Shown here one piece after another: positions 4,893-29,701 of a stretch of DNA of 36,973 nt. Under the pieces are notes generated by a model. It was not told where the DNA came from and ran no database searches. It saw nothing but the letters and a program-made list of their open reading frames with translations. A program made the translations under genes and the position numbers. Source of the DNA: Rhodospirillales bacterium 69-11 (lineage in GTDB: Bacteria; Pseudomonadota; Alphaproteobacteria; Acetobacterales; Acetobacteraceae); the NCBI GenBank assembly GCA_001898425.1, contig MKTV01000102.1, forward strand, positions 1 to 36,973. The letters run 5' to 3'. Within the stretch, counting starts at the first letter, position 1. The number at the start of each line of letters is the position of its first letter.

Positions 4893-4896
4893 AAAC

Positions 4897-6546: not shown

Positions 6547-6574
6547 GTCTTGGGCGAAGCGAGGGGCAGGATGC

Positions 6575-9881: not shown

Positions 9882-10125
9882 CAGTTTTGTCCCAAAAACG
9901 ATCCTTTGATCACTATCGGAACATTTTCATTCGGAGTCAAGAAGAGTTGTGCCCGCATTGGTGGGATGCCCTCTTCGTTCTGTATGTGCATCAGTATGGT
10001 TTTGGGGGTTGGCGCGCGGGCTGTCGCCGCAGGCCTCAATCCGCTGCTGTCTCCTGTCAGCTAGGGCCGCAATCCGGCTTACCTGCACCCGCTGGAGAGC
10101 CTACCTTGGGTTCTCGAACAACGGA
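9882..10125. other. intergenic stretch, nothing recognised
   Basis: This 244-bp stretch lies between two minus-strand small genes. No repeat, hairpin or RNA signature stands out. It probably carries the promoter for the 9606-9881 gene at its left edge. Confidence 0.3.
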
Positions 10126-10335
10126 CTAGTCCGCCTCACCCGCAAGCGCACTTTCAACACGCGCTCGCATCATACGAAGGCGATGCTCGACTTCATCAGG
10201 CGGCACCTGCTTGAGCTGGATCTGCTCAAGCAGGCAACTCAAGCTGGCCTCGAGCCACCGAATCTGGGCAAGAGCAAGCGATGCTTCGGTGGAGGGGAGT
10301 GATCTGAATGTAACCTTGGGTAGCACGTTGTCCAT
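10126..10335 (-). CDS. small helical unknown protein (69 residues)
   Basis: The ATG at 10333-10335 has AGGG five bases upstream, preferred over the upstream GTG at 10347. The product is almost entirely helical: STEASLALAQIRWLEASLSC, then LLEQIQLKQVPPDEVEHRLR and a basic end. It lies just downstream of the RTX-like gene on the same strand and could be co-transcribed with it. It resembles the 11986-12216 protein in size and helical character, but I see no residue-level match. The function is unknown. Confidence 0.45.
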   Translation of the reverse strand: MDNVLPKVTFRSLPSTEASLALAQIRWLEASLSCLLEQIQLKQVPPDEVEHRLRMMRARVESALAGEAD

Positions 10336-10390
10336 CTTTACCCTCACTCAGCTCGCCTCAGTCCATCAACTCAAGCCCAGGTGTGAGCTC

Positions 10391-11407: not shown

Positions 11408-11419
11408 GATATTTCCCAA

Positions 11420-11985
11420 TTATAGTGATTCTAAGTTGCTGATATTTTTTACGGGCAAGTCAAAGATGTCAAACTCGAATTCCTAAAGTAATAACGATGA
11501 GTAACGAAAATACATCGGATTTGTCTCGTGCAAAATTGCAGCGATAAAGGGTCCTCGTGCGCACCGTTGTGCGCATCTCGATCCAATCTTCGATCTGAGG
11601 GGGGTGTCAGGCCGCGAAAGTGGGCCTTAAACTTAGGATTCCGCTCTTTTTCGGCTTTGTGTCACGATTAATCAGTTGCGTCACACCAAGGTGATCGAGC
11701 AACCGCTATTACATTCTTTAGTGGGAAGTACTCTTACTGAGTGCTGCCTCGCACCCTGATCGTCCGCCCGCGAAGCTACCTAGCGCTATCTGACGTCCGC
11801 GCCTCTCCGACGAACTTAGTTCCTTCTGACCAGCTGGCCGTGACGGATAGGGGCGGAACCGCTGGCACGAGGTTACGTCCAGCGGGCGCCTTGATCGCAC
11901 CCGCGCTACGATCTCCCTTGTCCCCTTGCAGCTATTCCGAGAGCCGGTCCGGCTTCGAATTTTACATAGATATAAAACGGCAATA
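11420..11985. other. 566-bp gap, probable promoter region only
   Basis: The part nearest 11420 is AT-rich (positions 11415-11520) and suits a promoter for the minus-strand RTX-like gene. The rest has short frames in several registers with no recognisable protein. No RNA gene or intrinsic terminator was identified. Confidence 0.3.
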
Positions 11986-12216
11986 TCACTCAGGTAGATC
12001 CTCGATTGATCTCTCAGAGAGTGTCAGGCTTGTATCGGCAACTGCTCGCATCTGCTGCCTCAGCTCACTTGCGCCTGCCAGGCGAAGCTGGAGGGTCGCG
12101 AGTAGCAGCTCGTCCTCGGGCTGTGAGGTTCCATTTTGTATCCGAAAGCAGACTTCCGTCATCTCTTGCATAAGCTCTTGGAGAGAATCTTGGAGTTTGT
12201 CGTCCATCGTCGTCAC
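11986..12216 (-). CDS. small acidic helical protein, unknown
   Basis: A GTG at 12216 or an ATG at 12207 can start it; AAGG lies three bases before the GTG, so the choice is uncertain. The 73-76 residue product is strongly helical and acidic (MDDKLQDSLQELMQEMTEVC, FRIQNGTSQPEDELLLATLQ, LRLAGASELRQQMRAVADTS), suggesting a coiled-coil or dimeric regulator. It is divergent from the hybrid kinase gene starting about 320 bp away. No family is recognised. Confidence 0.5.
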   Translation of the reverse strand: MTTMDDKLQDSLQELMQEMTEVCFRIQNGTSQPEDELLLATLQLRLAGASELRQQMRAVADTSLTLSERSIEDLPE

Positions 12217-12536
12217 GTGCCTTGGGGAGAGCGTCCTAGCAAGAGAGCCAAAAAGCCAGGCAACTCATTCCAGCGGGATTGTTGCTCAAAGCGCTCATCG
12301 CGAGGATCCGAGCTTGTTCGGGCCTCGCTGGCTAACGCAGTACATGGCACGTCCGATACGCGTGCACGAGCCCGCCTCGGCGATCAAACTCCTTCGCATC
12401 GGCCACTCAGGACCTGAGCACCCTCCTCCTTTGCGGACATGACACGTCATTCGGCGTATGCTGAATGATGTACTGGTGCTGCCGCTTCAGTCGGTGCGCA
12501 CCAGGAAGACCGTCCAACCGGTGCGATGCATGTGAG
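12217..12536. other. 320-bp divergent intergenic region
   Basis: It separates the small minus-strand helical gene from the plus-strand hybrid kinase and should contain promoters for both. No clear operator repeat was seen. Frames that cross it look like antisense shadows. Confidence 0.3.
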
Positions 12537-14828: not shown

Positions 14829-14867
14829 GCCCCACCTTGAACGGGTGATTGGCGTTGCCCTCGCGGC

Positions 14868-17595: not shown

Positions 17596-18123
17596 CGTCC
17601 GCGGGATAACCCGGAGTCACGCCCATAGAGTCCACAGAGAGTGCCTGGTGAGGCCACACATGAACTGTAGGAATCGCAGCTCTTTTTGACTGGCGAGGGG
17701 CATTGGCTCACTGACGCGCAGGATCTCGTGTCCGAGTTGGAGAAGGCACAGGCTTTGTGGACGCTCACCCGGAATGTCTGCCCCTCTGAGGCGTATGAGC
17801 GGTGATCAGTGGCGCCTGAGTGGTGCTGAGTGGACACTCAGCGGGTGTGGAGCGGTGGTCGAAGCGGATTGAACCAACGTGGAGCCCTGCTGAGTGTCGG
17901 CGTAAGCACCTCGGGGAATAGTTTACCGTCATTCATGTGTGGTTGGACGATGTACCAGCCCGACACATAATCATCAGAGTTCGCCCAATCCTTGCCCCAA
18001 AAAATGCTGACGCAGATACCCTTCTGCAGATTTCCTGGGGGACAATCAGAGCGTTGTTGGCCTCCCTGGTTCCAGCTTAGGTGTTTGATTTTGCTTGGGA
18101 TTGGGGCGAAGCTCGATTGATCA
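17596..18123. other. gap without a recognised gene; 18-bp palindrome inside
   Basis: No convincing protein was found on either strand. A near-perfect palindrome, GCTGAGTG-GA-CACTCAGC, occupies 17825-17842, with further TGAGTG copies nearby (about 17816 and 17891), which could be a small operator cluster. No T-run follows, so it is not an intrinsic terminator. Confidence 0.35.
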
Positions 18124-18149
18124 TGAAGACTGGGTACTCCCAGTCTTCA
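18124..18149. other. perfect 11-bp stem hairpin
   Basis: TGAAGACTGGG at 18124-18134 pairs with CCCAGTCTTCA at 18139-18149 around a TACT loop. A second imperfect stem (CTTCTCTT / AAGAGAGGAAG, about 18167-18202) and a TCCCCGGGGGG palindrome follow within 70 bp. No T-tract is present on either side. It may be part of a structured RNA or a recombination site. Confidence 0.5.
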
Positions 18150-18509
18150 GGCATACCTCTCCCACCTTCTCTTCTCTTAGTGAATTTAAGAGAGGAAGTC
18201 CCCGGGGGGTAGCTGCAACGGGTGCGAAAGGATGGTCGGATCGGCATGTAGCCCCTTTGGTTCAGCGGCTCAAGAGGCTTGGGGGCAGCGTCGGTGCCTG
18301 GCCCGAGAGCCATGGCCTTGGCGGAGGGCATTGATACCCGGGAAGGGGTGTGGACTCTGCCGACCAGGTGCCATGCCAATTTGGGAGCTGGCTTGCTCGT
18401 TCGGGAGGCAAGTTCTCGAGGCTCACGCGGGCGGACACGATCCCTGATCTTCGCACCATGCTCCACAATCCCCTTTGAGAGATCATGGGCGGCCTGAAGG
18501 TTGATCCAC
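18150..18509. other. non-coding, structure-rich stretch
   Basis: Frames here belong to no known family and show no codon regularity. The left half contains the second stem and the C/G palindrome described with the 18124 hairpin. The right half leads into a repA fragment. No tRNA signature was found. Confidence 0.3.
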
Positions 18510-18515
18510 AGCTCT

Positions 18516-18703
18516 GGGCGCCACAGGGCACACCACACGTCACGATCTTGCCTCGTGACTTCATGCGGCCCGGTTCGACCCAGAGGGTGACTTGATAGCC
18601 CTTCTTCTCCCATGTCTGGTCGTCTGAGAGGCGCTTGTGCGGCATTCACGAGTTTCACGTGCTGCGCCGGGCTGAACAGGGGAGGCCTCCAACTTAGAAG
18701 CAT
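18516..18703 (-). pseudogene. repA fragment (central part only)
   Basis: The minus strand encodes PHKRLSDDQTWEKKGYQVTL, then WVEPGRMKSRGKIVTCGVPC and GA. It is almost identical, in DNA as well as protein, to residues about 80-125 of the intact repA at 24993-25931. After that the reading is unrelated, and before it a differently framed start-like segment (RPPLFSPAQHVKLVN) occurs. The 120-bp near-identity indicates a recent duplication followed by truncation at both ends. Confidence 0.75.
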
Positions 18704-18715
18704 CCTGTTGTCAAT
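18650..18715 (+). repeat. short dispersed repeat shared with 26259-26325
   Basis: A segment starting CACGAGTTTCAC and containing GCTGAACAGGGG recurs with a few differences at about 26259-26325, in the same orientation. At both places it adjoins repA fragments and TTGCC/GGCAA-type motifs. It probably marks a former replicon segment, perhaps a repA 5' end read on the minus strand (RPPLFS..VKLV). Confidence 0.5.
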
Positions 18716-18855
18716 TGCCTAAATGCTGGCAATGAGGCTTAATAATTTGCTGGCAAGGCTAAGCACCGATGCACCCCGCCATCGGGCTACGGCGAGGCGC
18801 CAGTCTTCGCCAAAAGATACCTCAAACCTTGGGCCCACGATGTCGTCTCCCGCTG

Positions 18856-19344
18856 TCATGGCTGCTTCATCTGGAGGATCGTCCTGGCCGTCTCCGACGT
18901 CACGTCCGCGACCAGCTTGACGGTGGTGTCGTAGGCCGGCTGCCCGAGCACGCGCAGCATCCGCCGCAGCTGCAGCGCCGCCATCTCGGTCCGCGCGGTC
19001 TCCGCGCCGATCAGCCAGATCAGCGCGATCACCTCGCTCGGGATCCGGCCCCCCAGCTCCGTCTCGAGGGCGGCGATCGCGGCCACGATGGCGCTCCGGC
19101 GCCACGGATAGGCGGCGCCGCAAGCATGGCAGTGGGTCGGCACTGGGATCCGGCGTGTCGCGACGACGCCGTGCACCCGACAGCGACCCCGGATCGGCGC
19201 GTCGCAAGTCGGACAGGCCATGATCGTCTTCTCACCACAGCAGGGACAACGCGGCTTGGTGAGATGCGGGTTGGTTCTGGCGGACGGCGTGATCTGGTGA
19301 CCGTTCAGGCAAACCTGCTGGACGTCGTAGCCGCTGCTAGACAC
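18856..19344 (-). CDS. DUF2321-like zinc-ribbon protein
   Basis: This 162-residue protein opens with YDVQQVCLNGHQITPS and carries three zinc-ribbon-type Cys pairs (CPCCGEKT, CPTCDAPIRG and CHACGAAYPW, all within residues 30-80). This is the order known in DUF2321 proteins. The C-terminal half is helical with no catalytic motif. The family's function is unknown; it is scattered in bacteria and often lies on mobile DNA. It is isolated, with a strong hairpin immediately upstream (19365-19394), which suggests a self-contained inserted cassette. Confidence 0.75.
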   Translation of the reverse strand: MSSSGYDVQQVCLNGHQITPSARTNPHLTKPRCPCCGEKTIMACPTCDAPIRGRCRVHGVVATRRIPVPTHCHACGAAYPWRRSAIVAAIAALETELGGRIPSEVIALIWLIGAETARTEMAALQLRRMLRVLGQPAYDTTVKLVADVTSETARTILQMKQP

Positions 19345-19364
19345 CTCCGGTCCCTACCCTCCCC

Positions 19365-19394
19365 TGTGTCCGGAAAGAGAAATTTCCGGACACA
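19365..19394. promoter_or_regulatory. perfect 12-bp inverted repeat upstream of the DUF2321-like gene
   Basis: TGTGTCCGGAAA (19365-19376) pairs exactly with TTTCCGGACACA (19383-19394) around six bases. It ends 21 bp before the ATG at 19344 on the minus strand, so it could be an operator or a leader hairpin. TGTCCGGAAA is also like the ends of several insertion sequences, so a relic of joined IS ends is an alternative. No transposase is nearby. Confidence 0.5.
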
Positions 19395-19670
19395 TGAGAG
19401 ATAAGGGAGCCCGGCCCTGCCCCGCAACGACGCCAGTCTCACGTGGTCGAAATGCTCGCGAGCACCGCATCGCCGGCCCTCGCCACCTCACTCCGGCTGG
19501 CTCACTCCGCTTGGCGCTGGGTCGGAGATCGTAGGAGACCCATTCGCAATCGAGGACTCGCCCCCCCCTCCTGCTGCCAAATTCAGCTCGCCCTAGCGCA
19601 TCCGGTGATCTTCGAAGGAGCGGTTCACCGTCACAATCCAAGTGGCTCGCGCCCACGCGACTCGACAGAG
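19395..19670. other. gap, nothing recognised
   Basis: No protein family, RNA gene or repeat was recognised between the 12-bp inverted repeat and the GGGACTTT repeats. Frames on both strands are short and low in regularity. Confidence 0.3.
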
Positions 19671-19927
19671 TTGGGACTTTAGCGTCACCCCATATTCGGG
19701 CCGTTGTCCACAGACAGGCACTTTATCCAGGGGACTTTGGCGTCGCGGAGCCGGGACTTTAGGCGCACGCGACTTCAGGGCCACGGATTGTCTGAAGCTT
19801 GCTCTGGCCGTCTATCCGGAGGCGAACGTCAGCGTCACGCAAGCCGGCCTCACCTGCATCCGTCAGCGCCGGCGGTGCCAAAAGCGGAAGCCAGACGGTT
19901 GGGAATTGGCTGACGCTAAAGTCCCAA
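19671..19927. repeat. third iteron-like family (TTGGGACTTTAGCGTCA)
   Basis: TTGGGACTTTAGCGTCA at 19671-19687 recurs as a perfect 17-bp inverted copy at 19911-19927. Two direct partial copies start at 19731 (GGGACTTTGGCGTC) and 19753 (GGGACTTTAGGCGC). A repA 3' fragment lies between the direct copies and the inverted one. The arrangement is that of an iteron origin whose initiator has been largely deleted. Confidence 0.55.
19785..19912 (+). pseudogene. repA 3'-end fragment
   Basis: The plus strand reads CLKLALAVYPEANVSVTQAG followed, after a one-base shift, by LHPSAPAVPKAEARR. It matches the C-terminal end of the RepA proteins here (LALAVYRDARVEITETGV and LQPSPPPVRK at 26800-26950; YPEARLSVSDAGVTLYPAQP in the intact copy). 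Everything upstream of this C-terminal piece is missing. It is embedded in GGGACTTT-type repeats. Confidence 0.6.
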
Positions 19928-20080
19928 GGCGTGACATGGATCCCCACGGCTCCCAGCCGCTCCAGCCGAAACATGCCTTTGCGCGTCAGCTTCAGACAGG
20001 TGAGGAGCGAAGCGACAGGGACCGCCGCGCCATCGAAGCTGCCATTCAGTACATGGCCGACGAGGACGCGTCCTTAGTGA

Positions 20081-20660
20081 TGAGCTGCGCGGAGTAGGAA
20101 GCTGAGCAGCCGAGGTCATTGCCGGCAGCACGGCAACACGGCAACACGGCATGATGGCAATTAGCGGCCAAAGCGTCCCGTGGGTTCCGAAGCCACGTGG
20201 CGACTGGAAATTCGTCATCTGGTCACAGGCGAGCCGGGCACAGGCACCCGCCAGTTTTATCAGCATCAGGGCTGTGGATCCTTCTTGGCGGCTCGCTGGT
20301 TTCCGCAAAGGCCGACAGCGTCCGTCGCTGGCATCGCATTTGCCATCATTATTGCTGGCAATGCGGCAAGCACGGAATTTTGGCAATGCGGCAATATGGC
20401 AGCCGCGTCTCCGACTTCTCGACAAAAAATTCTCGATCCCCGCGCCCGTGATAGACGCTCAGGTCCCTACGTACGGAAAAACCCGGAAAGACGGAAACCG
20501 CTGATCCGGCTTAAGGATCTGTCCATGGCTTCCGATTTCGAACTGCCTGGGGAGGCACCGGCACCAGCCTCGGGCATCTATGAACTCCTGAACGTGCTTG
20601 GGGCGTTTACCGGCACGCGGACCGTTCGGACTGAAGGCGAACCACTCCCGCCCACGCCCA
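20081..20660 (+). repeat. long dispersed repeat, copy A
   Basis: About 580 bp that recur at 23804-24380 (copy B), with a shortened copy C at 27052-27184. It begins with GAGCTGCGCGGAGT, has a cluster of GGCAA units, the block GTGGGTTCCGAAGCCAC, then GTCATCTGGTCACAGGCGA. It runs through a TACGTACGG box into the 5' part of the SGIYELLNVLG gene. Reading frames are not conserved between copies in the first 420 bp, so that part is probably non-coding (leader, partition site or regulatory RNA). Confidence 0.7.
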
Positions 20661-20764
20661 TCGGCTGGTCCTGGCGTCGTACGACGGACACTGCTGGAGG
20701 CGCAGCAATCATCCGCGAGCTGGAGCGGTTGCTGCTATCACGAGGATCGCCGGGTCAGGGCTAA
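20525..20764 (+). CDS. intact member of the SGIYELLNVLG small-protein family
   Basis: The ATG at 20525 follows AAGGA with good spacing; the product is 79 residues. Core features are PASGIYELLNVLGAF, VRTEGEPLPPTPIGWSWRR and a helical end (AIIRELERLLLSRG). It has no membrane segment and no cysteines and is probably a small soluble protein. Two further copies in the window (6628-6995 minus, 24219-24404 plus) are broken by frameshifts, and this is the only intact one. Just downstream, the opposite strand carries a remnant of the zinc-finger gene (DVVGGTQVPCKACAGAG). This is the same convergent pairing as at 6575-6995. The function is unknown. Confidence 0.55.
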   Translation: MASDFELPGEAPAPASGIYELLNVLGAFTGTRTVRTEGEPLPPTPIGWSWRRTTDTAGGAAIIRELERLLLSRGSPGQG

Positions 20765-20767
20765 CCC

Positions 20768-20880
20768 AAGGGTCGAGACACTGGTCCGCCCTGCCCCTGC
20801 GCAAGCCTTGCAGGGAACCTGGGTTCCTCCCACGACATCAATGGCCGCGCAGTCCCAATCCCCGGAGCTTTAGCCTTACT
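20768..20880 (-). pseudogene. remnant of the CxxCxGxG zinc-finger gene, convergent to the SGIYELLNVLG gene
   Basis: The minus strand reads AIDVVGGTQVPCKACAGAGR and TSVSTLGL, aligning with VDVVGGKQIPCEVCAGAG and RISASSLG of the protein at 6575. The first Cys pair is not readable and no start survives, so only the second half of the zinc site remains. Confidence 0.45.
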
Positions 20881-21184
20881 TGGCCGCACCGCGAGCGGGG
20901 CGTCATCTTGCAGCCATCCAAGCCGGCGGTCGCCGCTCGCGGGTAGGCGTCACCAGAGTCCACACCACCCCTGCCCCAGCGCTACCCACGAGGAGAGGGG
21001 ATGAGACGGATCCTCACAGCGTGGAGGCTGAGCGGATGTGTACTCCCGAACCCTGGAGCTGCACGGGTGCGCTCTCACTCTCCAAGGGCTCACGCTCACC
21101 CGGGGTTGCTTTCGGAGAGCTGCCGAATGCTGCTCTTCAACATTCCGACGCCCGCAGTCTGCGGGTGGAGCGGCATGTCCGCTG
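20881..21184. other. 304-bp gap, nothing recognised
   Basis: Frames on the plus strand are arginine- and proline-rich with no family resemblance. No repeat or hairpin with strong arms was noted. Confidence 0.3.
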
Positions 21185-21397
21185 CTAGGGGTTGCGCCTG
21201 TCCGCAAGCGTTGGTCGAAGGTCGGCGCTCGCGGCCCGGATCGCCGCAGCCTTGGCAAGCACCTGCTCAGCCATTTGGCGACTACGGAGGGCTTCCACAC
21301 GAAGGCGAGTGATCTCCTCCCGGACAGCAGCCACGTCCGGAATTGGCGCCGAGCGCACCGGCGCCAACGATTTCAGCTTGTCGATGAAGCGCAGCAT
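21185..21397 (-). CDS. small basic helical protein, unknown
   Basis: The ATG at 21395-21397 is preferred over a TTG at 21403; a G-rich stretch precedes it. The 70-residue product (MLRFIDKLKSLAPVRSAPIP, then DVAAVREEITRLRVEALRSR and QMAEQVLAKAAAIRAASADL) is almost all amphipathic helix with Arg/Ala heptad-like spacing, so a coiled coil is likely. It is probably a real short gene. No family is recognised. Confidence 0.45.
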   Translation of the reverse strand: MLRFIDKLKSLAPVRSAPIPDVAAVREEITRLRVEALRSRQMAEQVLAKAAAIRAASADLRPTLADRRNP

Positions 21398-21613
21398 CCC
21401 CAACCCGCCTAAGTGTTGCTACATAACAACCACTGCTTCCCCGAAAGAGAATCCATTGCAAATACCATCCAGGCTGCGCGAAGGCTTGATGCTCGCGAGA
21501 TCGCAGTCGAACCGTTTGTCATGGCTTACTCAGATGATCGATGGCCGTGCTTGCCGAGGGATGCCGCAGAACACGTTACCTACCTGGAGCAGAACGCACC
21601 TGGAGAAGGAGCG

Positions 21614-21823
21614 ATGCCCCAACATCGAAAGCAAGAGAGTGATCCGGCGCGTGTTACGGCATGCTTCTGGGGCGGCGTCGGGCTGCTCATCGTGGGACTG
21701 CCAGTTCGTCCCGTATGGCCTTCCATGGGGGTGGGCCGCCCTTGCAGCGAGTGCAGCCGGCTCTGCATTCGCTATCGCCAGGGACGGGAAATTGAGGCTC
21801 GGAGAGAAGGATCCAGAGAATGA
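21614..21823 (+). CDS. possible small membrane protein, perhaps frameshifted
   Basis: The ATG at 21614 follows GGAGAAGGAG. The frame gives MPQHRKQESDPARVTACFWG with a hydrophobic stretch VGLLIVGLPV, then turns basic and Cys-rich. An overlapping frame continues with a second convincing hydrophobic hairpin (PYGLPWGWAALAASAAGSAF) and a polar tail (GKLRLGEKDPENEPHLGS). A one-base shift near 21700 would join them into a two-helix membrane protein of about 75 residues. The gene may therefore be broken. Confidence 0.35.
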   Translation: MPQHRKQESDPARVTACFWGGVGLLIVGLPVRPVWPSMGVGRPCSECSRLCIRYRQGREIEARREGSRE

Positions 21824-21970
21824 GCCTCATCTAGGGTCGACCCGGGCCCCAATCTCATCGCGCCGCACCGCGGCCTGTGGGGCCGGATGTCCCGGTCCAA
21901 CAGCAGCGGTCTGCGAACGCAAACATCTGCTTCGGCATCAACAGAGGCACGGCCGTCGGGCAGCTGATCG

Positions 21971-22792
21971 TCACGATCTCCGGCCAGCGCCGATGTAGTA
22001 AGAAATCGGGATCTGCAGTCCTGCAGCTGCACGATAGGCCTCGGCACGCCGCGCAAGCACATGCCGCGCTCGGGCCTGCGTGGCAGTGTTCTGAGCAGCG
22101 ATGGCGCTGGCCGTTACGGCCATGCCTCCCATACCGATGTTCCATAAGGCATCGGCATCCGGCACCATATAGAAGGCGCGGCAGGCCGTAACCGCCACCT
22201 CCATCAATCCAGCCGCCCGCAGGAGCTGGGCGAAGGCCTTCGGATCGGAGAACCGGAGAGTGTCATGGCCCTCGGGCACCGCTGGATGGGGCGGCAATTC
22301 CAGCTCGGCGATCGTCTCCCGGAACAGCCCCTGCACGCGCTGGCGGTCGGGGTGGTCCCACCAACTGAACGCAAGCATTCCTCCGGCGGCCAGCACGCGC
22401 ACGCACTCCGCCAATGCCGCTTCCGGTTCAGGGAAGTGGCCCAGAGCGAAGTTGCAGAGCACGGCATCGAAGGCGCCGTCCGCAAACGGTAGTGCCAGGA
22501 CATCAGCCACGTGGAACTCGATGTCCGGGTGGGTCTTCTGTGCCAAGGCGACCATCCCAGCGGAGACATCCACCCCAGTTGTGACCGCCCCGCGCTCCTT
22601 CGCGGCCGCTGCCGCCACCCCTGGCCCTGTGGCGACGTCCAGCACGCGCCTACCCGGAGTGATGCGCGCTGCTTCGACCAGCGGCATCACGGCAAAGCTC
22701 GTCAGGGGAGCGAAGTGCTCGGAGTAAGAGCCGGCGATCCGATCATGCGCCGAGCTCTCAAACGCCGTGAAGGCACGTGCATCGAGTGCCAT
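21971..22792 (-). CDS. class I SAM-dependent methyltransferase (UbiE/Methyltransf_11 type)
   Basis: The ATG at 22790-22792 (MALDARAFTAFESSAHDRIA) is preferred because GGGAG lies eight bases upstream; the frame is open to 22843. The 273-residue protein has motif I VLDVATGPGVAAAAA, motif II GVDVSAGMVALA, motif post-I FHVADVLALPFADGAFDAVL and motif III VRVLAAGGMLAFSWW. These are the classic small-molecule methyltransferase features. The substrate is unknown. It stands alone among replicon debris, so it is likely passenger cargo. Confidence 0.88.
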   Translation of the reverse strand: MALDARAFTAFESSAHDRIAGSYSEHFAPLTSFAVMPLVEAARITPGRRVLDVATGPGVAAAAAKERGAVTTGVDVSAGMVALAQKTHPDIEFHVADVLALPFADGAFDAVLCNFALGHFPEPEAALAECVRVLAAGGMLAFSWWDHPDRQRVQGLFRETIAELELPPHPAVPEGHDTLRFSDPKAFAQLLRAAGLMEVAVTACRAFYMVPDADALWNIGMGGMAVTASAIAAQNTATQARARHVLARRAEAYRAAAGLQIPISYYIGAGRRS

Positions 22793-22842
22793 CTTGCCGT
22801 CTCCCACACCGGGGCGGTCGCTCGCACGACCGGTAACTTCCA

Positions 22843-23149
22843 TTTAAGTGATGGGGCTGGGCAGTCGGCATTCAATTGTGAGCGCGCGTTCTGCCTTTGT
22901 GAGCCATTTGCACGAAATGTGTTCCGCGGATTTCTGCTGGGAGACTTCGGAACAAATCAGGAATGCCAGCGGCGTTCTTGCGTCGGTCATCATCGACGCG
23001 AATGTGCTCGGCACGATCGGTCGATTTCACTCCATCCGATGGTGATCCCACTTGGGCCACGCAGCCCCACGAGGGTCTCCCGAGGTCGGCGGGTAGCGTG
23101 ACCTAGAGGGATTCACAAAGCCACCGTGCTTCGCCTAGAATCCTGGCCC
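22843..23149. other. gap; possible PIN-domain remnant
   Basis: The plus strand at about 22980-23045 reads ASVIIDANVLGTIGRF, which resembles the first strand of a PIN-type nuclease toxin (one Asp and a VLG-type loop), but it stops after a few more codons. No antitoxin partner is visible. No other gene was found in this stretch. Confidence 0.25.
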
Positions 23150-23392
23150 ATGCCGACCGTCCGATTTACTTGGAACGCTCAGTTGGTCGATGTGCGACGC
23201 GAGGTGTGCCGCCGGGCACGCTGGGACAAAGCAGCGCGTGCTTGGGCGATGACCCCGTCAGAGGCAGAGGCTTTCGTGATTGCCGGCCACTTAAGGCTCG
23301 ATCTTCTCAAGATGCATGCGGAGATCGCGGTCGATGATACCCGATGGTGTGTCGGCTTTGTGAGTGGTGCTCCGGAGCGGCTGTCGGCTTAA
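23150..23392 (+). CDS. small unknown protein (80 residues)
   Basis: The ATG at 23150 (MPTVRFTWNAQLVDVRREVC) starts a compact soluble protein with Trp/Arg-rich pattern RRARWDKAARAWAMTPSEAE, a helix AEAFVIAGHLRLDLLKMHAE and a strand pair IAVDDTRWCVGFVSG. The alternating strand-helix-strand-strand layout suggests a small alpha/beta fold. It reads as a genuine conserved-type gene, but I do not recognise a function. It sits between a decayed repA piece and the methyltransferase. Confidence 0.55.
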   Translation: MPTVRFTWNAQLVDVRREVCRRARWDKAARAWAMTPSEAEAFVIAGHLRLDLLKMHAEIAVDDTRWCVGFVSGAPERLSA

Positions 23393-23499
23393 CGGTCGAC
23401 TCGCAGATCCTCGCCAACGGATATCCGCCGGTGACGATTGGCCTCGGCATGATGATGTGTAGTGCGGCGAGGCTTTGCCCTTGAGGCGCACCTCAAGCC

Positions 23500-23760
23500 G
23501 ACCTTGAAGTCAGCCTGACAGTCGATCGAAATCCCGGTTTATAATTAAGATGTATTGAGTAGTGATAAGCGGATGAACGCTCGCTGTGGTTGTGTTTGTA
23601 CGCTGAACGAAGTCCTGGGATAGGGAGTGGTTCGCTGAGTTGATGAGAGCACCAACTCCATCGTTGATGTCGGCCGACATAAGGCCGCACTCATACAGCC
23701 GATTACGATTGAGCCGACAGAGTTGGAGATACTCGGCGAAATACGGCGAATGAGCATCGG
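23500..23760 (-). pseudogene. strongly decayed repA C-terminal fragment
   Basis: On the minus strand, shifting frames give RLYECGLMSADI and then YVGRHQRWSWCSHQLSEPLP. These line up with LRDRSMSLDIYVWLAWRCHQ and LSKPTPISW of the intact RepA at 24993-25931. The DNA match (CTGAGTTGATGA, then GATGTC followed by CGACATA) is clear, while several indels break the frame. It is an old relic, more diverged than the 18516 fragment. Confidence 0.5.
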
Positions 23761-23803
23761 TGTCTGAGGGCACGCTGGGACAAGGGAACACGTCCCTGGG
23801 TTA

Positions 23804-24380
23804 TGAACGGCGCGGAGTAGGAGGCTGAGCAGCCGAGGTATTGCCGGCAACCCGGCAACCCGGCAACCCGGCAAAATGGCAATTAGCGGCCAAAGCGTCC
23901 AATGGGTTCCGAAGCCACGTGGCGACTGGATTCGTCATCTGGTCACAGGCGAGCCGGGCACAGGCACCCGCCAGTTTCATCAGCATCGGGACTGTGGATC
24001 CTTCTTGGCGGCTCGCTGGTTTCCGCAAGGGCCGACAGCGTCCGTCGTTGGCATCGCATTTGCCGTTCATTTTTGCTGGCAATGCGGCAATCTGGCCGCC
24101 ACTCCTCCGACTTCTCGACAATAGATTCTCGATCCCCGAGCCCGTGATACGCGCTCAGGTCCCTACGTACGGACAACCCGGAAAAACGGAAACCGCTGAT
24201 CGGCTTAAAGATCTGTCCATGGTTTCCGATCTCGAACTGCCTGGCGGGGCACCGGTACCGGCCTCAGGCATCTATGAACTCCTGAACGTGCTTGGGGCGT
24301 TTACCAGTACGCGGACCGTTTGGACTGAAGGCGAACCACTCCCACCCACCCCCATGGCTAATCCTGGCGGCGCACCACGG
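23804..24380 (+). repeat. long dispersed repeat, copy B
   Basis: Collinear with copy A at 20081-20660 and clearly similar through the whole length. It differs in the GGCAA cluster, which here is a clean tandem array of the octamer CCGGCAAC (23844-23875, three exact units plus one variant). It also lacks about 25 bp near 24085. The copy ends inside a broken SGIYELLNVLG gene. Confidence 0.7.
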
Positions 24381-24404
24381 CCGCTGCGGGGGAGTGACAT
24401 TTAG
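24219..24404 (+). pseudogene. truncated copy of the SGIYELLNVLG small-protein family
   Basis: The ATG at 24219 and the first 45 codons match the intact copy (PASGIYELLNVLGAF, EGEPLPPTP). One base is missing in the codon run after PPTP, so the reading becomes MANPGGAPRPLRG and stops. The homologous DNA ends just after this point, about 100 bp short of the intact gene. Confidence 0.6.
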
Positions 24405-24421
24405 GAAGTCGAGCGGTGGTC

Positions 24422-24505
24422 GTGGGGTTAACCGACCGCAGTCAGTCGAGCATGGGCGGTTGGGCGAGGTGGTCGAGGTATGGGAGTTGGCTTGCTGGGT
24501 GCAGA
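24422..24505 (-). pseudogene. internally deleted repA 3' tail
   Basis: The minus strand ends ARLTAVG with the stop inside GGTTAACCCCAC, exactly as in the intact repA at 24993. The match jumps directly to the stretch around 25190 (GGAGTTGGCTT). The tail and a mid-gene piece are joined with the intervening part deleted. It forms a direct repeat with 24987-25015 that brackets the toxin-antitoxin remnant. Confidence 0.55.
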
Positions 24506-24560
24506 CTTCGTCCCGGCACTACACAATTGTAGCCATCTACTGAGTACAAGGACTCTTCGC

Positions 24561-24803
24561 ATGGGCGTTCGGATCTCAATCCGACTTGACGACGACGTGC
24601 ATGCCGAACTTGAGGCTCAAGCCCAGTCGCGCGGGATGGGCTTGGCGGCCCTACTACGTGATCTCGCGACGGAAGCGGCACGGGCGGCGTGGCGAGAGCG
24701 CATCCGTCAGGCCAGTGCGATCGTCGCCGCGCACGCTGCAGCCCATCCCGAGGGAAAGGCCTTCTATGAGGGCTGGGGTATGCCGCGCGCTGATGCCGGT
24801 TGA
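24561..24803 (+). CDS. ribbon-helix-helix-type antitoxin
   Basis: The ATG at 24561 gives 80 residues. The N-terminus MGVRISIRLDDDVHAELEAQ has the strand-then-helix pattern of MetJ/Arc/CopG regulators, followed by SRGMGLAALLRDLATEAARA as the second helix. The C-terminal part is helical and ends AFYEGWGMPRADAG, suitable for wrapping a toxin. It overlaps the downstream toxin-like frame by 11 bp, the normal arrangement of type II systems. It lies between two copies of a repA tail, in the replicon-debris region. Confidence 0.65.
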   Translation: MGVRISIRLDDDVHAELEAQAQSRGMGLAALLRDLATEAARAAWRERIRQASAIVAAHAAAHPEGKAFYEGWGMPRADAG

Positions 24804-24975
24804 GGGTGCGCCGTTCAGCCCACGGGCTGGCCAGATCGTGCTTGCCGACTGGCCCGGCGATGCGCGGGCCAAGGAGCCCAACAAGCGGCGGCTGAGCGGT
24901 CGAGCTGGGTTGGCGGCTTCAGTGGTAGTCCACAACCCCAGCTCGCAGATCACTCAGTGCGCCGACAGCAACTAG
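24793..24975 (+). pseudogene. truncated PemK/MazF-like toxin
   Basis: The ATG at 24793 overlaps the antitoxin. The first part, FSPRAGQIVLADWPGDARAK and EPNKRR, has the opening beta-strands of a PemK/MazF ribonuclease, where a family member would continue PAVVV. Here it reads LSGRAGLAASVVVHNPSS and stops at residue 60, about half the normal length. The rest of the fold is absent, so ribonuclease activity is unlikely. Confidence 0.6.
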
Positions 24976-24992
24976 ATAGTCCAACCGTGGGG

Positions 24993-25931
24993 TTAACCGA
25001 CCGCAGTCAGGCGAGCGATTGGCGGCTGGGCGGGGTAAAGCGTCACCCCCGCATCGCTGACGCTGAGTCGCGCTTCGGGGTAGGCGGCAGCGGCGGCGCC
25101 AAGTGCTTCCAGAAAGCTAGGTTTGAAGTGCTTGATCGCCTTGAATCCTGCCCCGAACTGGGCATGAATGGCCGGCCAGGATATAGGAGTTGGCTTACTG
25201 AGTTGATGACAGCGCCAAGCCAGCCATACATAGATGTCTAGCGACATACTCCGATCCCGGAGTTGCCTTATGGCTGCCTCGAGCAGTGGGACTGGATGGT
25301 CCCGCAGAGCCTTCCAGAAGGTTTCATCAAGGACCACCCGCTCTTCCCAAAGCGAGCCCTGATCGCCTTCCGGCACCTTGAATCTCAGTCCTGATGTGAC
25401 GATTGCTCCGCGTGCCCAACCTTCCTGCGCTTCGTTTTCCCAGAAGAATTTCAAGGTGCAGGCCGATATCCGTGCGGCTTGCTCCCGTAGGCCACGGGCG
25501 GTCTCGCCGCCTATAGAAAGCCCCATCCGCTCCATCCAGTCTCGCATAGAGCGCCCGAGGGCTACCTCTCGACTGCCCGTTCGCACGGCCTGGGTTTGTA
25601 GGTAGAGCAGGATCATCCGGGCGCGGGCTCCATAGGGCACACCATACGTCACGATCTTGCCTCGCGACTTCATGCGACCTGGTTCGACCCAGAGGGTGAC
25701 TTGATGGCCCTTCTTCTCCCATGTCTGGTCGTCTGAGAGGCGCTTGTGCGGCAGGCTAGTTAGGCAGAACCCAGTGTAGCTGATGCCGATCCGCTGGCTT
25801 TCGTCAGCCATCACTTCCGCAGCGATGTCGACGAAAGGTCGTTGTCTTTCTGGGACCATTTCCCGAGCACGTTCGCGGCCGTGAAGAAGCACTAGCTGAT
25901 GCAGCCTATTGGCTGTCTCGTCGCGATCCAC
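24993..25931 (-). CDS. repA: plasmid replication initiator RepA (intact)
   Basis: Start: the frame is open to a TTG at 25988, but the GTG at 25929-25931 has GAGGG four bases upstream, and the TTG lies against an iteron, so the GTG is preferred (312 residues). The protein belongs to the RepA family with a C-terminal initiator domain. Conserved stretches are FVDIAAEVMADESQRIGISY, LPHKRLSDDQTWEKKGHQVT, a central block with ILLYLQTQAVRTGSREVALG, and a winged-helix-like C-terminus (MSLDIYVWLAWRCHQLSK, FGAGFKAIKHFKPSFLEALG). It should bind GGTTAACCCCAC-type iterons: five lie just upstream at 25991-26174 and one overlaps its stop codon. Together they form a self-contained theta-type replicon. Whether it works alongside the second repA is unknown. 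Confidence 0.88.
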   Translation of the reverse strand: MDRDETANRLHQLVLLHGRERAREMVPERQRPFVDIAAEVMADESQRIGISYTGFCLTSLPHKRLSDDQTWEKKGHQVTLWVEPGRMKSRGKIVTYGVPYGARARMILLYLQTQAVRTGSREVALGRSMRDWMERMGLSIGGETARGLREQAARISACTLKFFWENEAQEGWARGAIVTSGLRFKVPEGDQGSLWEERVVLDETFWKALRDHPVPLLEAAIRQLRDRSMSLDIYVWLAWRCHQLSKPTPISWPAIHAQFGAGFKAIKHFKPSFLEALGAAAAAYPEARLSVSDAGVTLYPAQPPIARLTAVG

Positions 25932-25990
25932 GTCGCCCTCATGAGCAATAGTCCAGGCAACCTGCCCGGCAGAAATAGCTGGTGTCAACT

Positions 25991-26174
25991 GTGGGGTTAA
26001 CCGACCGAGCTATTTGAAGACTAGTAGGTCTTACTAGTAGTTTGGCCGGTTCTCCCCACGGGAAAACATGGAGTCGCGCCGGTTCTCCCCACAGCTGAGG
26101 CCGGTTAACCCCACGGGGTAATTCTCCTGCGTGAGGACGACTCGGGAAAGCATTCGACGGTCGGTTAACCCACA
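25991..26174. repeat. iterons / putative origin for the 24993-25931 repA
   Basis: Five copies of a 16-18 bp element: GTGGGGTTAACCGACCG at 25991 (inverted), GGCCGGTTCTCCCCACGG at 26044, GCCGGTTCTCCCCACAG at 26078, GGCCGGTTAACCCCACGG at 26099, and GGTCGGTTAACCCACAC at 26159. A further copy overlaps the repA stop (24987) and another lies at 24422. The region between (26007-26040, TATTTGAAGACTAGTAGGTC) is AT-rich. This is the layout of an iteron-controlled origin directly upstream of its initiator. Confidence 0.7.
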
Positions 26175-26328
26175 CGCCCGAGTCGCTTGTTTGATTCGAG
26201 ATTGGTGCCTAGTTCCTCACGATGCCGAGGAATTGCCAGCAACGCGGCAACTCGCAGCATGCACGAGTTTCACCTGCCGCGCCGAGCTGAACAGGGGCGG
26301 ACGCCCATCCAGGAGCATCTTATTGCCG

Positions 26329-26951
26329 CAGGCAGCGATCATTTATCTGCAGTCCGAGGCGCTGCGCACAGGCAGCCGTGATATCGAGCTCGGAGGGAGC
26401 CTGCGGGCCTTCCTCGGGCGCCTGGAACTGCCGGTAGGTGGCAAGACGACCAAACTCGTCCGCGAGGAGGCCGATCGCATCAGTCGGTGCCGCCTGACCT
26501 TCCATGCCAAGCGGCAGGGGGAAGCCTGCTGGTGAACCAGAACATCGTGGATGTGGCGATGTTCGTCGACGACCCTGGGGCGGCTGGGCAGGGCACACTG
26601 TTCGTCGAGACCGCCCGGTTGAGCGAAACCTTCTTCCAGCAGCTCAAGAAGCACGCCGTCCCGCTCGATGAGGCCGCGATCCGCCACATACGCACCTCCT
26701 CAATGGCGCTCGAAGTGTACTGTTGGCTCGCCTACCGGTTGCACTCCCTCGTTGCGCCGAAGCCGATCACCTGGGCGGCGCTGGCTGGCCAGTTTGGCGC
26801 GGGCATCAGGCTGCGGAAGCATTTCAAGCCGGCCTTCGTCGAAAGCCTGGCCCTGGCGGTGTATCGCGACGCTCGGGTCGAGATCACAGAAACAGGGGTG
26901 CTGCTGCAGCCCTCGCCACCGCCGGTTCGCAAGCTCCTGAAACAGGGGTAG
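26329..26951 (+). pseudogene. repA with a frameshift and no 5' end
   Basis: The plus strand reads IIYLQSEALRTGSRDIELGG, then SLRAFLGRLELPVGGKTTKL, up to FHAKRQGEACW and a stop. Shifting one base within a GGGGG run near 26517 gives LLVNQNIVDVAMFVDD, FVETARLSETFFQQLKK, a DEAAIRHIRTSSMALEVYCW block and a full C-terminus (LALAVYRDARVEITETGV). The N-terminal about 100 residues are absent. A single-base change in a homopolymer could be a sequencing error, but the missing 5' end argues for a real relic. Confidence 0.7.
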
Positions 26952-27575
26952 GCCAGGACGGCAAAGTTCACGTACGTAATATCGTTAGGCGATGCAGCGC
27001 TCGCCGTTGCGGACGATCCTGGTGGCCGAGCATCCAACTAGCGTGCCTGGGTAATGAGCTGCGCGGAGTTGGAAGCTGAACAGCCGAGGCCATTGCCGGC
27101 ATCATGGCAATGAGCACCCAAAGTGTCCCGTGGGTTCCGAAGCCACATGGCGATTGGAATTCGTCATCTGGTCACAGGCGAACCGTGTGGAGATGTAAGT
27201 GCTGTTTTCCGGCGACCCTCTCTGGTTCAGGTCTGCCTCAACGTCGTGATCACGCCCGGCTCGGGCGCGTCGTTTCGGCCTGATTGGGCGCTGGGTTATC
27301 GGTCTCTCTTTTACCGCCGCATTGCCGCCTTGCCATGATGCTGCATTGCCAGCAAAAGGAGCCAACATTGCACGTCAGTTCGGCAGAAATTCGGGAGCAA
27401 ACCTTGGCCGCGGCCTTTAGAGCGTCGGCAGCCCGCCGATAGCCGATTTCATGGACACAGGGCGCTCTATGTAAGCGCCGGCCACCTTTGCGGCCTGTTC
27501 ACGGGCACAGCAGCTGCCTTCGAACCAGCTCAATTGAGATTGCGGCTCGCAAATGCGTCAAATATGCTCACTTGC
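26952..27575. other. leader region of the second repA operon, with short repeat copy
   Basis: It holds copy C of the dispersed repeat (27052-27184), and further TTGCC and GGCAA motifs around 27314-27354. Otherwise no gene was recognised. It is likely to contain the promoter and copy-control sequences for the HTH-repA pair that starts at 27576. Confidence 0.4.
27052..27184 (+). repeat. long dispersed repeat, shortened copy C
   Basis: Matches the first about 170 bp of copies A and B (GAGCTGCGCGGAGTTGGAAG; CATTGCCGGC; GTGGGTTCCGAAGCCACATG; TCATCTGGTCACAGGCGA) with the GGCAA array reduced. It then stops, without the SGIYELLNVLG gene. It lies upstream of the second intact repA operon. Confidence 0.65.
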
Positions 27576-27827
27576 ATGGTGGGATTGCAAAATGACTTAC
27601 TAACACCGGCACAGTGCAGAATGGCACGGGCTGGGCTCGGCTTGTCTATCACTGAGGCCTCGAAGGCGTCGCTCGTGAGCCGCGCCACAATTACGCGCTT
27701 CGAGAACGGGAACGACATCAAGCCGGTGCTCCGATCGGCGCTGCGTGCCGCGTTCGAGCGCCTTGGGGCAGTGATTACAGAAAGCGGAGTCGAGATCACG
27801 CAGAAGCGGGGGAGGGAGGGGGCATGA
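27576..27827 (+). CDS. small XRE-like helix-turn-helix regulator in the repA operon
   Basis: The frame is open from a TTG at 27534, with ATGs at 27564 and 27576; the 27576 start gives 83 residues and fits the domain best. The motif LTPAQCRMARAGLGLSITEA followed by SKASLVSRATITRFENGN is a clear HTH of the XRE type. The C-terminal part (RSALRAAFERLGAVITESGV) is typical of short HTH proteins that sit in front of genes they control. Its stop overlaps the repA start (ATGA, 27824-27827), so it is translationally coupled and probably represses the operon or sets copy number. Confidence 0.75.
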   Translation: MVGLQNDLLTPAQCRMARAGLGLSITEASKASLVSRATITRFENGNDIKPVLRSALRAAFERLGAVITESGVEITQKRGREGA

Positions 27828-28738
27828 CGGAGGAGACCGATCAAGGCGATTTCCTCGCCGGCCTCAAGCTGCCCCGCACTGCGGCGAGGATTCTGAAATT
27901 CGCGCACGAGATCCAGGACGCTCGACCGGAAAGGCCCGACTACCTGCATAGTGTTCTCTGCCAGGTAGGTCTGCCGCGCAGTGAGACGAAAGCTTTAACG
28001 TTCGAACGGACCAACGGGAACGCCTCGCTGCTCATTGAGGCGGGAAAGTTGTGGAACGGGACGACATGGATGCAGCAGCCGCTGCCGTGCGGCACGCGGC
28101 CTCGCCTTGCTCTTGTGCATGTCAGCAGCGAGGCGGTCAGGTCTCAATCGCCGGTAGTCGAGATTGGAGGCTCTGTTAGGGAGTTCCTGATCCGCCTCGG
28201 AGTGGATACAGGCGGGCGGGAATACGCAACATTTACCAAGCAGATGCGCGCGTTATCAGCTTGCCGGATGAGTCTAGGGTTCGGAACCGAGACAATCGAT
28301 GCCAAGCCGATTGAGCGCTTCAACGCATGGACCGATGCTGAGGGCGACCGCCATAGCCCTGGCGTAATCGAGCTGACCCCAAAGTTTTTTGCTTCGCTGA
28401 CCGAGTTCGCTGTTCCGCTGGATGCACGCGCCCTGGCAGCGCTGAAGCACAGCGCTTTGGCGCTCGATGTCTATACCTGGCTCGCGCACCGCTTGCTGAG
28501 GGTGAAGCGTGTAACCGGCGAGCGGGTAACGTGGAAGAACCTGCGTGATCAGTTCGGGCAGGAGTATGCTGACCCAAAGAACTTCAAGCGTAAGATGGTC
28601 GCCACCCTGCGCTCAGTCCTCGCCGTCTACCCCGACGCGCGGATCGAGCCAGTGCTAGGCGGCTTGATCCTCCTCCCATCTCAGCCGCCAGTGCCCAAGA
28701 TCGCGCACCAGATCATCACCAAAGAGATCGGGAAGTAG
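27824..28738 (+). CDS. repA: second plasmid replication initiator RepA (intact)
   Basis: 304 residues starting MTEETDQGDFLAGLKLPRTA. It belongs to the same broad RepA family as the 24993 gene but is clearly different. Matching landmarks are LALVHVSSEAVRSQSPVVEI, RVTWKNLRDQFGQEYADP and the C-terminal VYPDARIEPVLGG with ILLPSQPPVP. It overlaps an upstream HTH regulator by 4 bp. Directly downstream are six copies of a 19-bp iteron, so this gene and the array together look like the functional origin of this replicon. The neighbouring conjugation operon is collinear and intact, which also suggests this is the live replication system. Confidence 0.9.
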   Translation: MTEETDQGDFLAGLKLPRTAARILKFAHEIQDARPERPDYLHSVLCQVGLPRSETKALTFERTNGNASLLIEAGKLWNGTTWMQQPLPCGTRPRLALVHVSSEAVRSQSPVVEIGGSVREFLIRLGVDTGGREYATFTKQMRALSACRMSLGFGTETIDAKPIERFNAWTDAEGDRHSPGVIELTPKFFASLTEFAVPLDARALAALKHSALALDVYTWLAHRLLRVKRVTGERVTWKNLRDQFGQEYADPKNFKRKMVATLRSVLAVYPDARIEPVLGGLILLPSQPPVPKIAHQIITKEIGK

Positions 28739-28740
28739 CG

Positions 28741-29050
28741 TTCGGGCATTTGGTACCCCCGTGGTCGGCCGGGCTACAACCACACGGCAGTCGTTCGGGC
28801 ATTTGGTACCCCTCGGCCGGATTCCTTCAACTTACCCTCTATCAGGGGTCCGACACGTGGCCTGCGCCTTTCGGGCATTTGGTACCCCTGAGCCTGTCCA
28901 GCACAGGAAGGGCGTAGCGGGGCCGAAGCCGAGCTGGCCCCCTGTGGATCGGGAAAGCTATCCACGGGTGGTTGGTACCCAGCATTCGGGCATTTGGTAC
29001 CCCAGATTTCGGGCAGATGGCACCCGTTCGGTTCGGGCATTCGGCACCCC
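28741..29050. repeat. iteron array / putative oriV of the second repA
   Basis: Four exact copies of TTCGGGCATTTGGTACCCC start at 28741, 28794, 28870 and 28985. Two variants (TTCGGGCAGATGGCACCC at 29008 and TTCGGGCATTCGGCACCCC at 29032) follow. Spacings are 53, 76, 115, 23 and 24 bp. Between copies three and four lie two DnaA-box-like sites in opposite orientation (TGTGGATCG at 28943 and CTATCCACG at 28958). The array begins 2 bp after the repA stop. This is a typical iteron origin, where RepA and DnaA would open the DNA. Confidence 0.85.
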
Positions 29051-29302
29051 CTAAACCGATAGCTACTTCCTCTAGACTCCCTTTAGCCTTTTCCGATGAT
29101 GGCGACCGAGGATGTGGATCCTTTCCGCCGACGGCGAAGGACGGCCACATTTGGCCCGCAGAGCATCGCGCCGCTTGAGGAAGCGGAAGGATACGGATCT
29201 AGCGGTCACGGGGTTGGGATGGCACCAGACCCACGGGTACGTGACATGTTTCGGAGGCTTGATAAAAGACGAACGTGAATACACGCGCAGAGACCCGATT
29301 CG

Positions 29303-29701
29303 ATGGCGAAAGGCCGACCCAGCACATCATCCAGGTCGTCACGTTTCCAGTCGGACCGAAAGGTCCGCTCGCCGCCGCTGATTGCGCAGGCTCCCAAAGA
29401 AGGTAGAGCCGGTAAGCACCCTTCTTCTCCGGACGCAGAGATCTGCGCCGCCGGAGAGGAATCACAACTCGAATTCCAGCGAATATTCGGTGTTAACCTG
29501 AGGTCTGCCCGACTAAAATCGGGCCTAAAGCAATCTGAAGTTGCCATAATCACCGGACTCACTCAGCAGTATCTGTCGTTGATTGAGGCTGGACAACAAA
29601 ACCTCACGATAAGAACCATGGCTATTCTTGCGAAAGTTGTCGACCACGATTTGCTCGACCTTCTCAAAAAGGTGGTCGACACACCGCCGAAGCCCGAGTA
29701 G
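29303..29701 (+). CDS. XRE family transcriptional regulator upstream of the trb operon
   Basis: 132 residues. The first about 55 are basic, Ser/Pro-rich and probably disordered. Residues 60-125 form a Cro/C1-type domain with FGVNLRSARLKSGLKQSEVA, the recognition part ITGLTQQYLSLIEAGQQNLT and a final helix. The DNA is AT-richer than its neighbours, a possible sign of separate origin. It is 55 bp upstream of trbB, and a perfect palindrome (29736-29753) sits between them over the trbB start, so it is a strong candidate for the repressor of conjugation genes. Confidence 0.85.
   Translation: MAKGRPSTSSRSSRFQSDRKVRSPPLIAQAPKEGRAGKHPSSPDAEICAAGEESQLEFQRIFGVNLRSARLKSGLKQSEVAIITGLTQQYLSLIEAGQQNLTIRTMAILAKVVDHDLLDLLKKVVDTPPKPE

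Follow-up and report, generated by a model that had tools for sequence, protein, structure and literature searches.

Contig MKTV01000102.1 of Rhodospirillales bacterium 69-11 (hereafter C102) is an 88,951-base scaffold in a 6.48-Mb genome assembly of 124 contigs, and its first 36,973 bases are the window analysed here. Between 18 and 29 kb the window holds a dense cluster of intact and broken copies of repA, a gene encoding a plasmid replication initiator of the RepA_C family (PF04796). The two intact copies are repA1 (24993-25931, minus strand; E 3.6e-27, 96.2 bits against a cut-off of 26) and repA2 (27824-28738, plus strand; E 1.3e-12, 48.8 bits, same cut-off), confirming both complete initiator genes proposed in an earlier note on this DNA. 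RepA1 shares 83% amino acid identity with the initiators of loci L027 and L075, and its comparison with L027 gives a dN/dS of 0.056, with dS saturated at 2.2. RepA2 shares 67% identity with the RepA of Roseomonas mucosa plasmid pTT14-9, with a dN/dS of 0.131 and dS saturated at 2.0. A small open reading frame (ORF) that looks helix-turn-helix-like by eye (27534-27827, plus) overlaps the repA2 start. The two genes are separated by 1.9 kb free of N and belong to separate branches of the RepA tree, so that C102 carries two apparently complete replicons of different lineages, as a multireplicon plasmid does.

To map further repA segments, we compared 29 RepA proteins and protein pieces with the whole scaffold by tblastn (E limit 0.01; three queries were frames of a 67-kb locus of C102 itself, and the RepA of contig C116 of the same genome was entered twice) and searched the scaffold with a RepA hidden Markov model (HMM; E below 1). 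The tblastn search identified nine places on the scaffold and zero on the reversed scaffold; the HMM gave one match on the reversed control (E 0.45) and confirmed all tblastn places except 20011-20076 and 60971-61051. Six places lie within the window: repA1, repA2, a pseudogene at 26.2-27.0 kb, and scraps at 18511-18645, 19702-19910, and 20011-20076. The earlier note had listed five broken pieces besides the intact genes, in both orientations. The orientations hold, and four of the five pieces stand, those at 18516, 19785, and 26329 at the protein level and that at 24422 as about 50 bp of DNA only; the piece at 23500 does not stand, and one N-terminal scrap had been missed.

Two of the scraps resemble repA1. 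The scrap at 18511-18645 (minus; tblastn E 2.9e-21) is internal, covers codons 60-104, and is 94.6% identical to repA1 over 129 bp, with seven differences, four silent and three residue-changing. Its silent-site distance to L027 is about equal to that of repA1, and it may have been copied from the resident gene or derive from a near relative. Joined to it is a 72-bp repeat (18639-18710, plus), a second copy of which (26254-26325, plus; 79% identity) lies directly 5′ of the pseudogene. The other scrap (24421-24470, minus) comprises the last repA1 codons and one repeat of the repA1 iteron type; it is identifiable by 51 bp at 90% DNA identity (E 9e-11) and is undetected at the protein level by tblastn and HMM. 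Between the two repA1 3′ ends, reading frames at 24560-24890 (plus) show an intact antitoxin-like ORF (24561-24803) followed by a broken PemK/MazF-type toxin gene of which the first part is left, and this segment is 76.6% identical in DNA to Roseomonas mucosa plasmids.

The remaining pieces in the window come from other repA genes. The largest, a pseudogene at 26335-26948 (plus; HMM 3e-25 and 7e-54), has lost its N-terminus and has a broken frame; part of it scores 49.7 bits against PF04796 (cut-off 26). A C-terminal scrap of a third repA lies at 19702-19910 (plus; tblastn 5e-8; HMM 19771-19857, E 4e-4), and an N-terminal scrap at 19936-20076 (plus; matched part 20011-20076, ATG at 19936 by eye) is cut where a repeat module begins. 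By HMM alone the latter has an E of 0.34, no better than the reversed control; its assignment comes from tblastn (6.6e-6) and from 60 bp at 90% DNA identity within repA of three Roseomonas mucosa plasmids.

We rejected the stretch at 23500, which the earlier note had described as a heavily decayed repA. It yields zero protein matches by tblastn or HMM, and its best DNA alignment score against repA, 59, lies within the range of 300 shuffles (mean 43, maximum 70). Within it, 23662-23751 matches C102 56003-56097 in inverted orientation at 73%. The latter copy (L009 19030-19124) is upstream of a relaxase gene and stands between that gene and a ParA-like gene; for this reason 23662-23751 may represent a remnant of a transfer origin region.

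Beyond the window, tblastn places repA matches at 60971-61051, 66926-67480, and 67224-68432, the latter two spans being widened by the queries from the same locus (HMM spans 66980-67120 and 67365-68303). The scrap at 60971-61051 was found by tblastn alone (4.7e-6). The 67.4-kb RepA (C102 67392-68285; L010 10419-11312) is open over its matched length save one internal stop, scores 72.4 bits against PF04796 (cut-off 26), and contains an iteron-like repeat at about 68100. Altogether C102 carries four RepA lineages and six scraps, four of the scraps inside the 10-kb cluster in the window, and the same genome has another RepA gene on contig C116.

In a 29-row tree to which this genome contributes six rows (RepA1, RepA2, the C116 RepA, part of the pseudogene, and two halves of the 67.4-kb RepA), the four longer RepAs of C102 fall with different relatives. 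Specifically, RepA1 groups with L027 (support 100/97) and then with Acidiphilium (97/94); RepA2 groups with the RepA of pTT14-9 (96/89), next to the C116 RepA (100/100); and the C-terminal part of the pseudogene groups with the RepA of Pseudoroseomonas cervicalis pL11-A (96/98). A fourth group, of four rows and with moderate support (91/91), contains both halves of the 67.4-kb RepA. The tree has some long branches and leaves part of its inner order unsettled, and the scraps at 19.7-20.1 kb are too short for placement. The four longer RepAs stand in different branches, three well supported and one moderately, and therefore did not arise by a single tandem amplification. The different sources proposed for the segments thus hold for these four, and one recent amplification, the case named in the earlier note as fatal to its reading, is excluded for them; the short scraps cannot be placed. 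The accompanying idea of very different ages fares less well. In particular, the two parts of the pseudogene have dN/dS values of 0.19 and 0.21 against pL11-A, and because these differences are still mostly silent, the pseudogene need not be old. Its divergence from RepA1 reflects membership of a separate RepA lineage, and the piece described as heavily decayed, at 23500, is unconfirmed.

Several of the repA segments are accompanied by iteron-type repeats of their own. Upstream of repA1, the repeat GTGGGGTTAACCGRCC and its variants lie at 25990-26115 (25990 plus; 26044, 26078, and 26098 minus; 0, 0, and 1 matches in three shuffles), and a further copy at 24986-25003 overlaps the repA1 stop codon. 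The form GTGGGGTTAACCGACC is present both upstream of repA1 and at its 3′ end across the stop codon. The repeat occupies the same places in L027, L075, and L076, the conserved placement expected of an iteron replicon, and in L075 and L076 the copy that overlaps the stop codon is retained; repeat spacings in L076 equal those in L027, and the two are probably one record. L077 has an exact copy on either side of its repA, L078-L080 have a single copy each with two mismatches, L081 and L082 lack the repeat, and viral contigs give zero matches. In L027 (482-1501), two repA1 iterons some 1 kb apart enclose a membrane protein gene next to repA that looks PAP2-like by eye, as though additional genes could be framed by iterons.

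Behind repA2, at 28741-29050 (plus), lie four exact and two variant copies of TTCGGGCATTTGGTACCCC, which has one stray match at 52573 and 0-1 matches in three shuffles. This repeat was not found in pTT14-9 with five mismatches allowed, and by eye a different repeat lies behind the repA of that plasmid. Each of the two intact genes thus has its own iterons, to which its initiator is predicted to bind. The expectation that one replication system had been kept is not borne out: both intact genes have iterons, and the third, at 67.4 kb, is broken by a single stop. RepA1, RepA2, or both presumably drive replication today. Distinct repeats also adjoin the 19.7-kb scrap and the 67.4-kb repA. Around the former, copies of GGGACTTTAGCGTCAC with 0-3 mismatches are located at 19673, 19731, 19753, and, reversed, 19910 (19673-19925 overall); elsewhere on the scaffold this repeat has one stray match (9281, three mismatches), and three shuffles contain none. 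A further repeat has copies at 18.35 kb (two mismatches), 20.95 kb, and 61.4 kb and next to the 60.97-kb scrap (0-2 matches in shuffles). Different iteron-type repeats thus stand beside different repA segments, and therefore several of the scraps are pieces of replicons and not of genes only.

The district also contains partition-like pieces. Clusters of four or more GGCAA/TTGCC motifs with gaps of up to 35 bases occur at seven sites on C102 (5207, 20119, 20340, 23841, 60378, 68448, and 68832), against a mean of 0.06 and a maximum of 1 in 50 first-order Markov simulations; the motif was picked after inspection of the sequence, and its raw cluster number ties seventh among all 5-mers of the scaffold, those above or level with it consisting of G+C only. 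None occurs in ten other loci (nine from named plasmids and one from C116), and contigs of other genomes give no exact match to one pattern of the array core. The arrays at 68448-68492 and 68832-68926 flank a resident parB-like gene of the ribbon-helix-helix (RHH) type, near a ParA gene at 68.9-69.9 kb. In the window, a relic at 27041-27357 consists of a shortened array core and then, on the minus strand, the beginning of an RHH parB-like gene, upstream of which lie TTGCC repeats too few for the array threshold. Its segment 27264-27354 is 74% identical to 68768-68864, a stretch across the beginning of the resident parB-like gene; 61272-61363 likewise matches the beginning of that resident gene and its upstream repeats, at 78%. 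The order at 26.3-27.36 kb equals that at 67.4-69.9 kb, where repA is followed by an array, a parB-like gene of opposite strand, and another array; since 27264-27354 and 61272-61363 match the parB-like start and its upstream repeats, the 26.3-27.36-kb segment is a decayed counterpart of the 67.4-69.9-kb replicon order. The arrays may be partition sites, a role that is unproven because zero of nine loci with ParA relatives (two of the nine with a ParB relative) carry such arrays.

The DNA between the repA segments includes modules that recur on the scaffold. The core with array 20119-20160 (20068-20236, plus, by alignment) is followed by a module with array 20340-20394 (20248-20858, plus) that is 94% identical to 60269-60876 and recurs in part at 23968-24390. 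A module at 23081-23537 (plus) is 93% identical to 58718-59173, a diverged copy of 20077-20697 (86%) with array 23841-23882 lies at 23800-24390 (plus), and 27057-27357 matches 61069-61366 at 86.5%. The modules 20248-20858, 23081-23537, and 27057-27357 recur at 58.7-61.4 kb in a different order, and the sequences flanking the array core on the left and on the right vary among its four aligned copies, two of which lack 24 bp of the array. By eye, the joins appear to fall at short shared repeats.

The scaffold also carries transfer genes. C102 encodes a T2SSE-type ATPase, a VirB4-like protein, a TrbL/VirB6 protein, TrbI, a type IV coupling protein (T4SS-DNA_transf), and a MobA/VirD2-like relaxase, and thus combines the relaxase, coupling protein, and mating-pair gene by which a conjugative plasmid is recognised. 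Its first ParA-like gene lies at about 56.4 kb; the second, at 68.9-69.9 kb, forms with the RHH-type protein a pair spanning 68.5-69.9 kb. Among plasmids, the genes searched have their closest kin in Roseomonas, Pseudoroseomonas, Acidiphilium, and Azospirillum. With trb-type transfer genes, a coupling protein, a relaxase, and two ParA-like genes, C102 is therefore most likely a conjugative plasmid, and would be a free one.

To assess how unusual the cluster is, we used a RepA model built from an alignment of 12 rows, with the genus loci left out and the ten compared plasmids included. In ten named plasmids picked as good RepA hits (14.6-430 kb, 2.1 Mb together), it finds 13 matches, one or two per plasmid and never clustered, pairs being at least 50 kb apart. 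On C102 the same model finds seven, of which five, representing four loci, lie within 10.2 kb. A second RepA piece (E below 0.01) was found in zero of eight loci of repA1 relatives (39-84% identity, not all independent; 5.6-16.9 kb each). Among 33 genomes of the genus, this one included, a Pfam search gives a RepA_C match in nine, and only C102 lists more than one per contig. Very short scraps may have been missed in all of these comparisons. The density that the earlier note called unusual is therefore borne out against the ten plasmids and the eight repA1 loci, with the reservation that the ten are picked RepA hits and that single pieces occur elsewhere in the genus. PLSDB has no near match for 18000-29500, and its distant mode gives patches only.

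We propose, with a probability of about 72%, that C102 records serial replicon fusion with trimming of redundant replicons. The proposal builds on features seen directly: the repA segments, the separate lineages of the four longer ones, the different iteron-type repeats, and the copies of modules reordered elsewhere. It is further favoured by the transfer and ParA-like genes on C102, by the gene order that the 26.3-27.36-kb relic shares with the 67.4-69.9-kb replicon, and by the lack of clustered RepA matches in the ten named plasmids and of second pieces in the eight repA1 loci. On this view a conjugative plasmid would have fused repeatedly with kindred RepA_C plasmids, and the stretch would be its district for replication and partition. 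Fusion would have brought the segments in; after each fusion one replicon would suffice, leaving surplus repA and par genes free for deletion and rearrangement; and trimming would have proceeded mainly through joins at short repeats, shared iterons and arrays included, leaving two complete replicons, repA1 and repA2. Repeated cointegration and deletion, as the earlier note also suggested, would account for these features, and no intermediate plasmid was found.

Several observations weigh against this proposal. Tree support for the position of the 67.4-kb RepA is moderate, and each of its halves has a different partner (92/85 and 85/12). Duplication of the resident gene could have produced both repA1-like scraps (95% and 90%). 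The mechanism of joining is unseen: a transposase was not found among the scanned ORFs of 18-29 kb, an incomplete search. PLSDB yielded no plasmid that carries these modules in unfused form. Neither fragments nor extra copies are unique to C102, since the RepA1 query detects single partial pieces in three other genomes of the genus (G006 contigs C100, in two adjacent parts, and C113, and contig ends C86 and C81; G017 C490; G025 C114), and PLSDB as a whole has 941 RepA places in 902 records, with two or three in some Xanthomonas records. C102 may possibly be an integrated element. Finally, order outside the window rests on scaffolding because C102 has three runs of N (36974-36981, 60129-60268, and 72606-72615).

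A second explanation, which we hold to be possible and clearly less probable, is that imports were few: one or two fusions took place, and internal duplication, inversion, and deletion through iterons, arrays, and short repeats then made most of the scraps. It is favoured by the modules at 20.2, 23.1, 23.8, and 27.1 kb, which recur reordered at 58.7-61.4 kb with 84-94% identity, by the changing neighbours of the array core, by the repetition of the repA1 3′ end with an iteron on either side of the antitoxin fragment, and by the additional gene between two repA1 iterons in L027. Internal shuffling alone cannot make the separate lineages of the four longer RepAs.

Less likely again is that the plasmid keeps the iterons and arrays of past rivals in use while their proteins rot, as incompatibility determinants or extra partition sites; non-coding scraps would then act on related plasmids that enter the cell, by titrating or handcuffing their initiators. 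In a study of the F-plasmid FIB replicon (PMC11983097), one iteron block alone cured a related replicon in trans, and the other block alone had no effect. On C102, the excess of GGCAA/TTGCC clusters over the simulated mean fits such use, as do the differences between the 20.1- and 23.8-kb arrays, which, read from the alignment, all fall outside the GGCA cores; concerted change inside arrays would give the same core pattern. Against retention in use, the 18.5-kb scrap is from mid-gene and lacks any iteron of its type, 24 bp are missing from two of the four array copies, and the arrays are absent from all nine loci with ParA relatives. An assembly artefact, in which short-read scaffolding merged pieces of several plasmids, would be in keeping with the N gaps at 36974, 60129, and 72606 and with the RepA gene on C116, and is very improbable given that the window itself has no N and that many small joins of differing identity within 10 kb would be unlike scaffolder output.

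Under serial fusion with trimming, C102 is a dense case of known multireplicon plasmid evolution and not a new system. Fusion is given as the origin of several replicons on one plasmid in a report on Klebsiella multireplicon plasmids (PMC8579121), and bi- and trireplicons with rep pseudogenes or truncated rep genes, partly ascribed to sequencing or assembly, are described for Acinetobacter baumannii (PMC7315799). C102 likewise has replicons of different lineages on one plasmid; it differs from these cases in having four lineages of one RepA family, six scraps, and broken par-like pieces, with Acetobacteraceae kin. FIB has iterons on both sides of rep (PMC11983097), and in C102 they lie upstream and at the 3′ end of repA1 and downstream of repA2; unlike in FIB, its initiators belong to the RepA_C family (PF04796), and one iteron overlaps the repA1 stop codon. 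In a study of pdif module shuffling in Acinetobacter Rep_3 plasmids (PMC13141974), short modules are reordered within and between plasmids, sometimes via cointegrates; C102 resembles them in its reordered short modules, and its joins differ in looking, by eye, like short-repeat joins. Among the matches listed in the literature on fusion plasmids, none concerned this plasmid family, and none was found on RepA initiators of Roseomonas plasmids.

The district offers a readable record of a conjugative plasmid gaining and shedding replicons, with four RepA lineages, iterons, and partition-like pieces that have been lost to varying degrees. It is also a concrete case for asking if the remaining iterons and arrays have become inert or continue to govern which plasmids coexist; if they are kept in use, the apparent graveyard would be a working set of incompatibility determinants.

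Other features of the scaffold stand beside this record. A 79-amino-acid (aa) frame in the repeat module (20525-20761) was considered as a gene family and rejected: it has no match in PLSDB (E limit 0.01). It has matches in three of the 33 genus genomes, this one included, and its 60.5-kb copy is frameshifted, so the frame was treated as relic DNA. An 80-aa ORF is open in both copies of its module (23150-23392 and C102 58788-59030), with four silent and two changing differences over 80 codons. A search of the window with Rfam gave zero families at the gathering score. An intact-looking methyltransferase gene (21971-22843) sits amid the relics, and a tyrosine recombinase and an IS66 transposase are present on C102 outside 18-29 kb. 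Upstream of the district, the window has a GGCAA/TTGCC array at 5207-5257 and, as a third zone of module DNA, an inverted relative of 20546-20841 at 6705-7007 (minus; 73%). The cargo 5′ of the district (111-17393) includes genes for an FkbM methyltransferase, a pectate-lyase-like protein, a glycosyltransferase 61, and an MHYT-PAS kinase, together with GGDEF/EAL genes.

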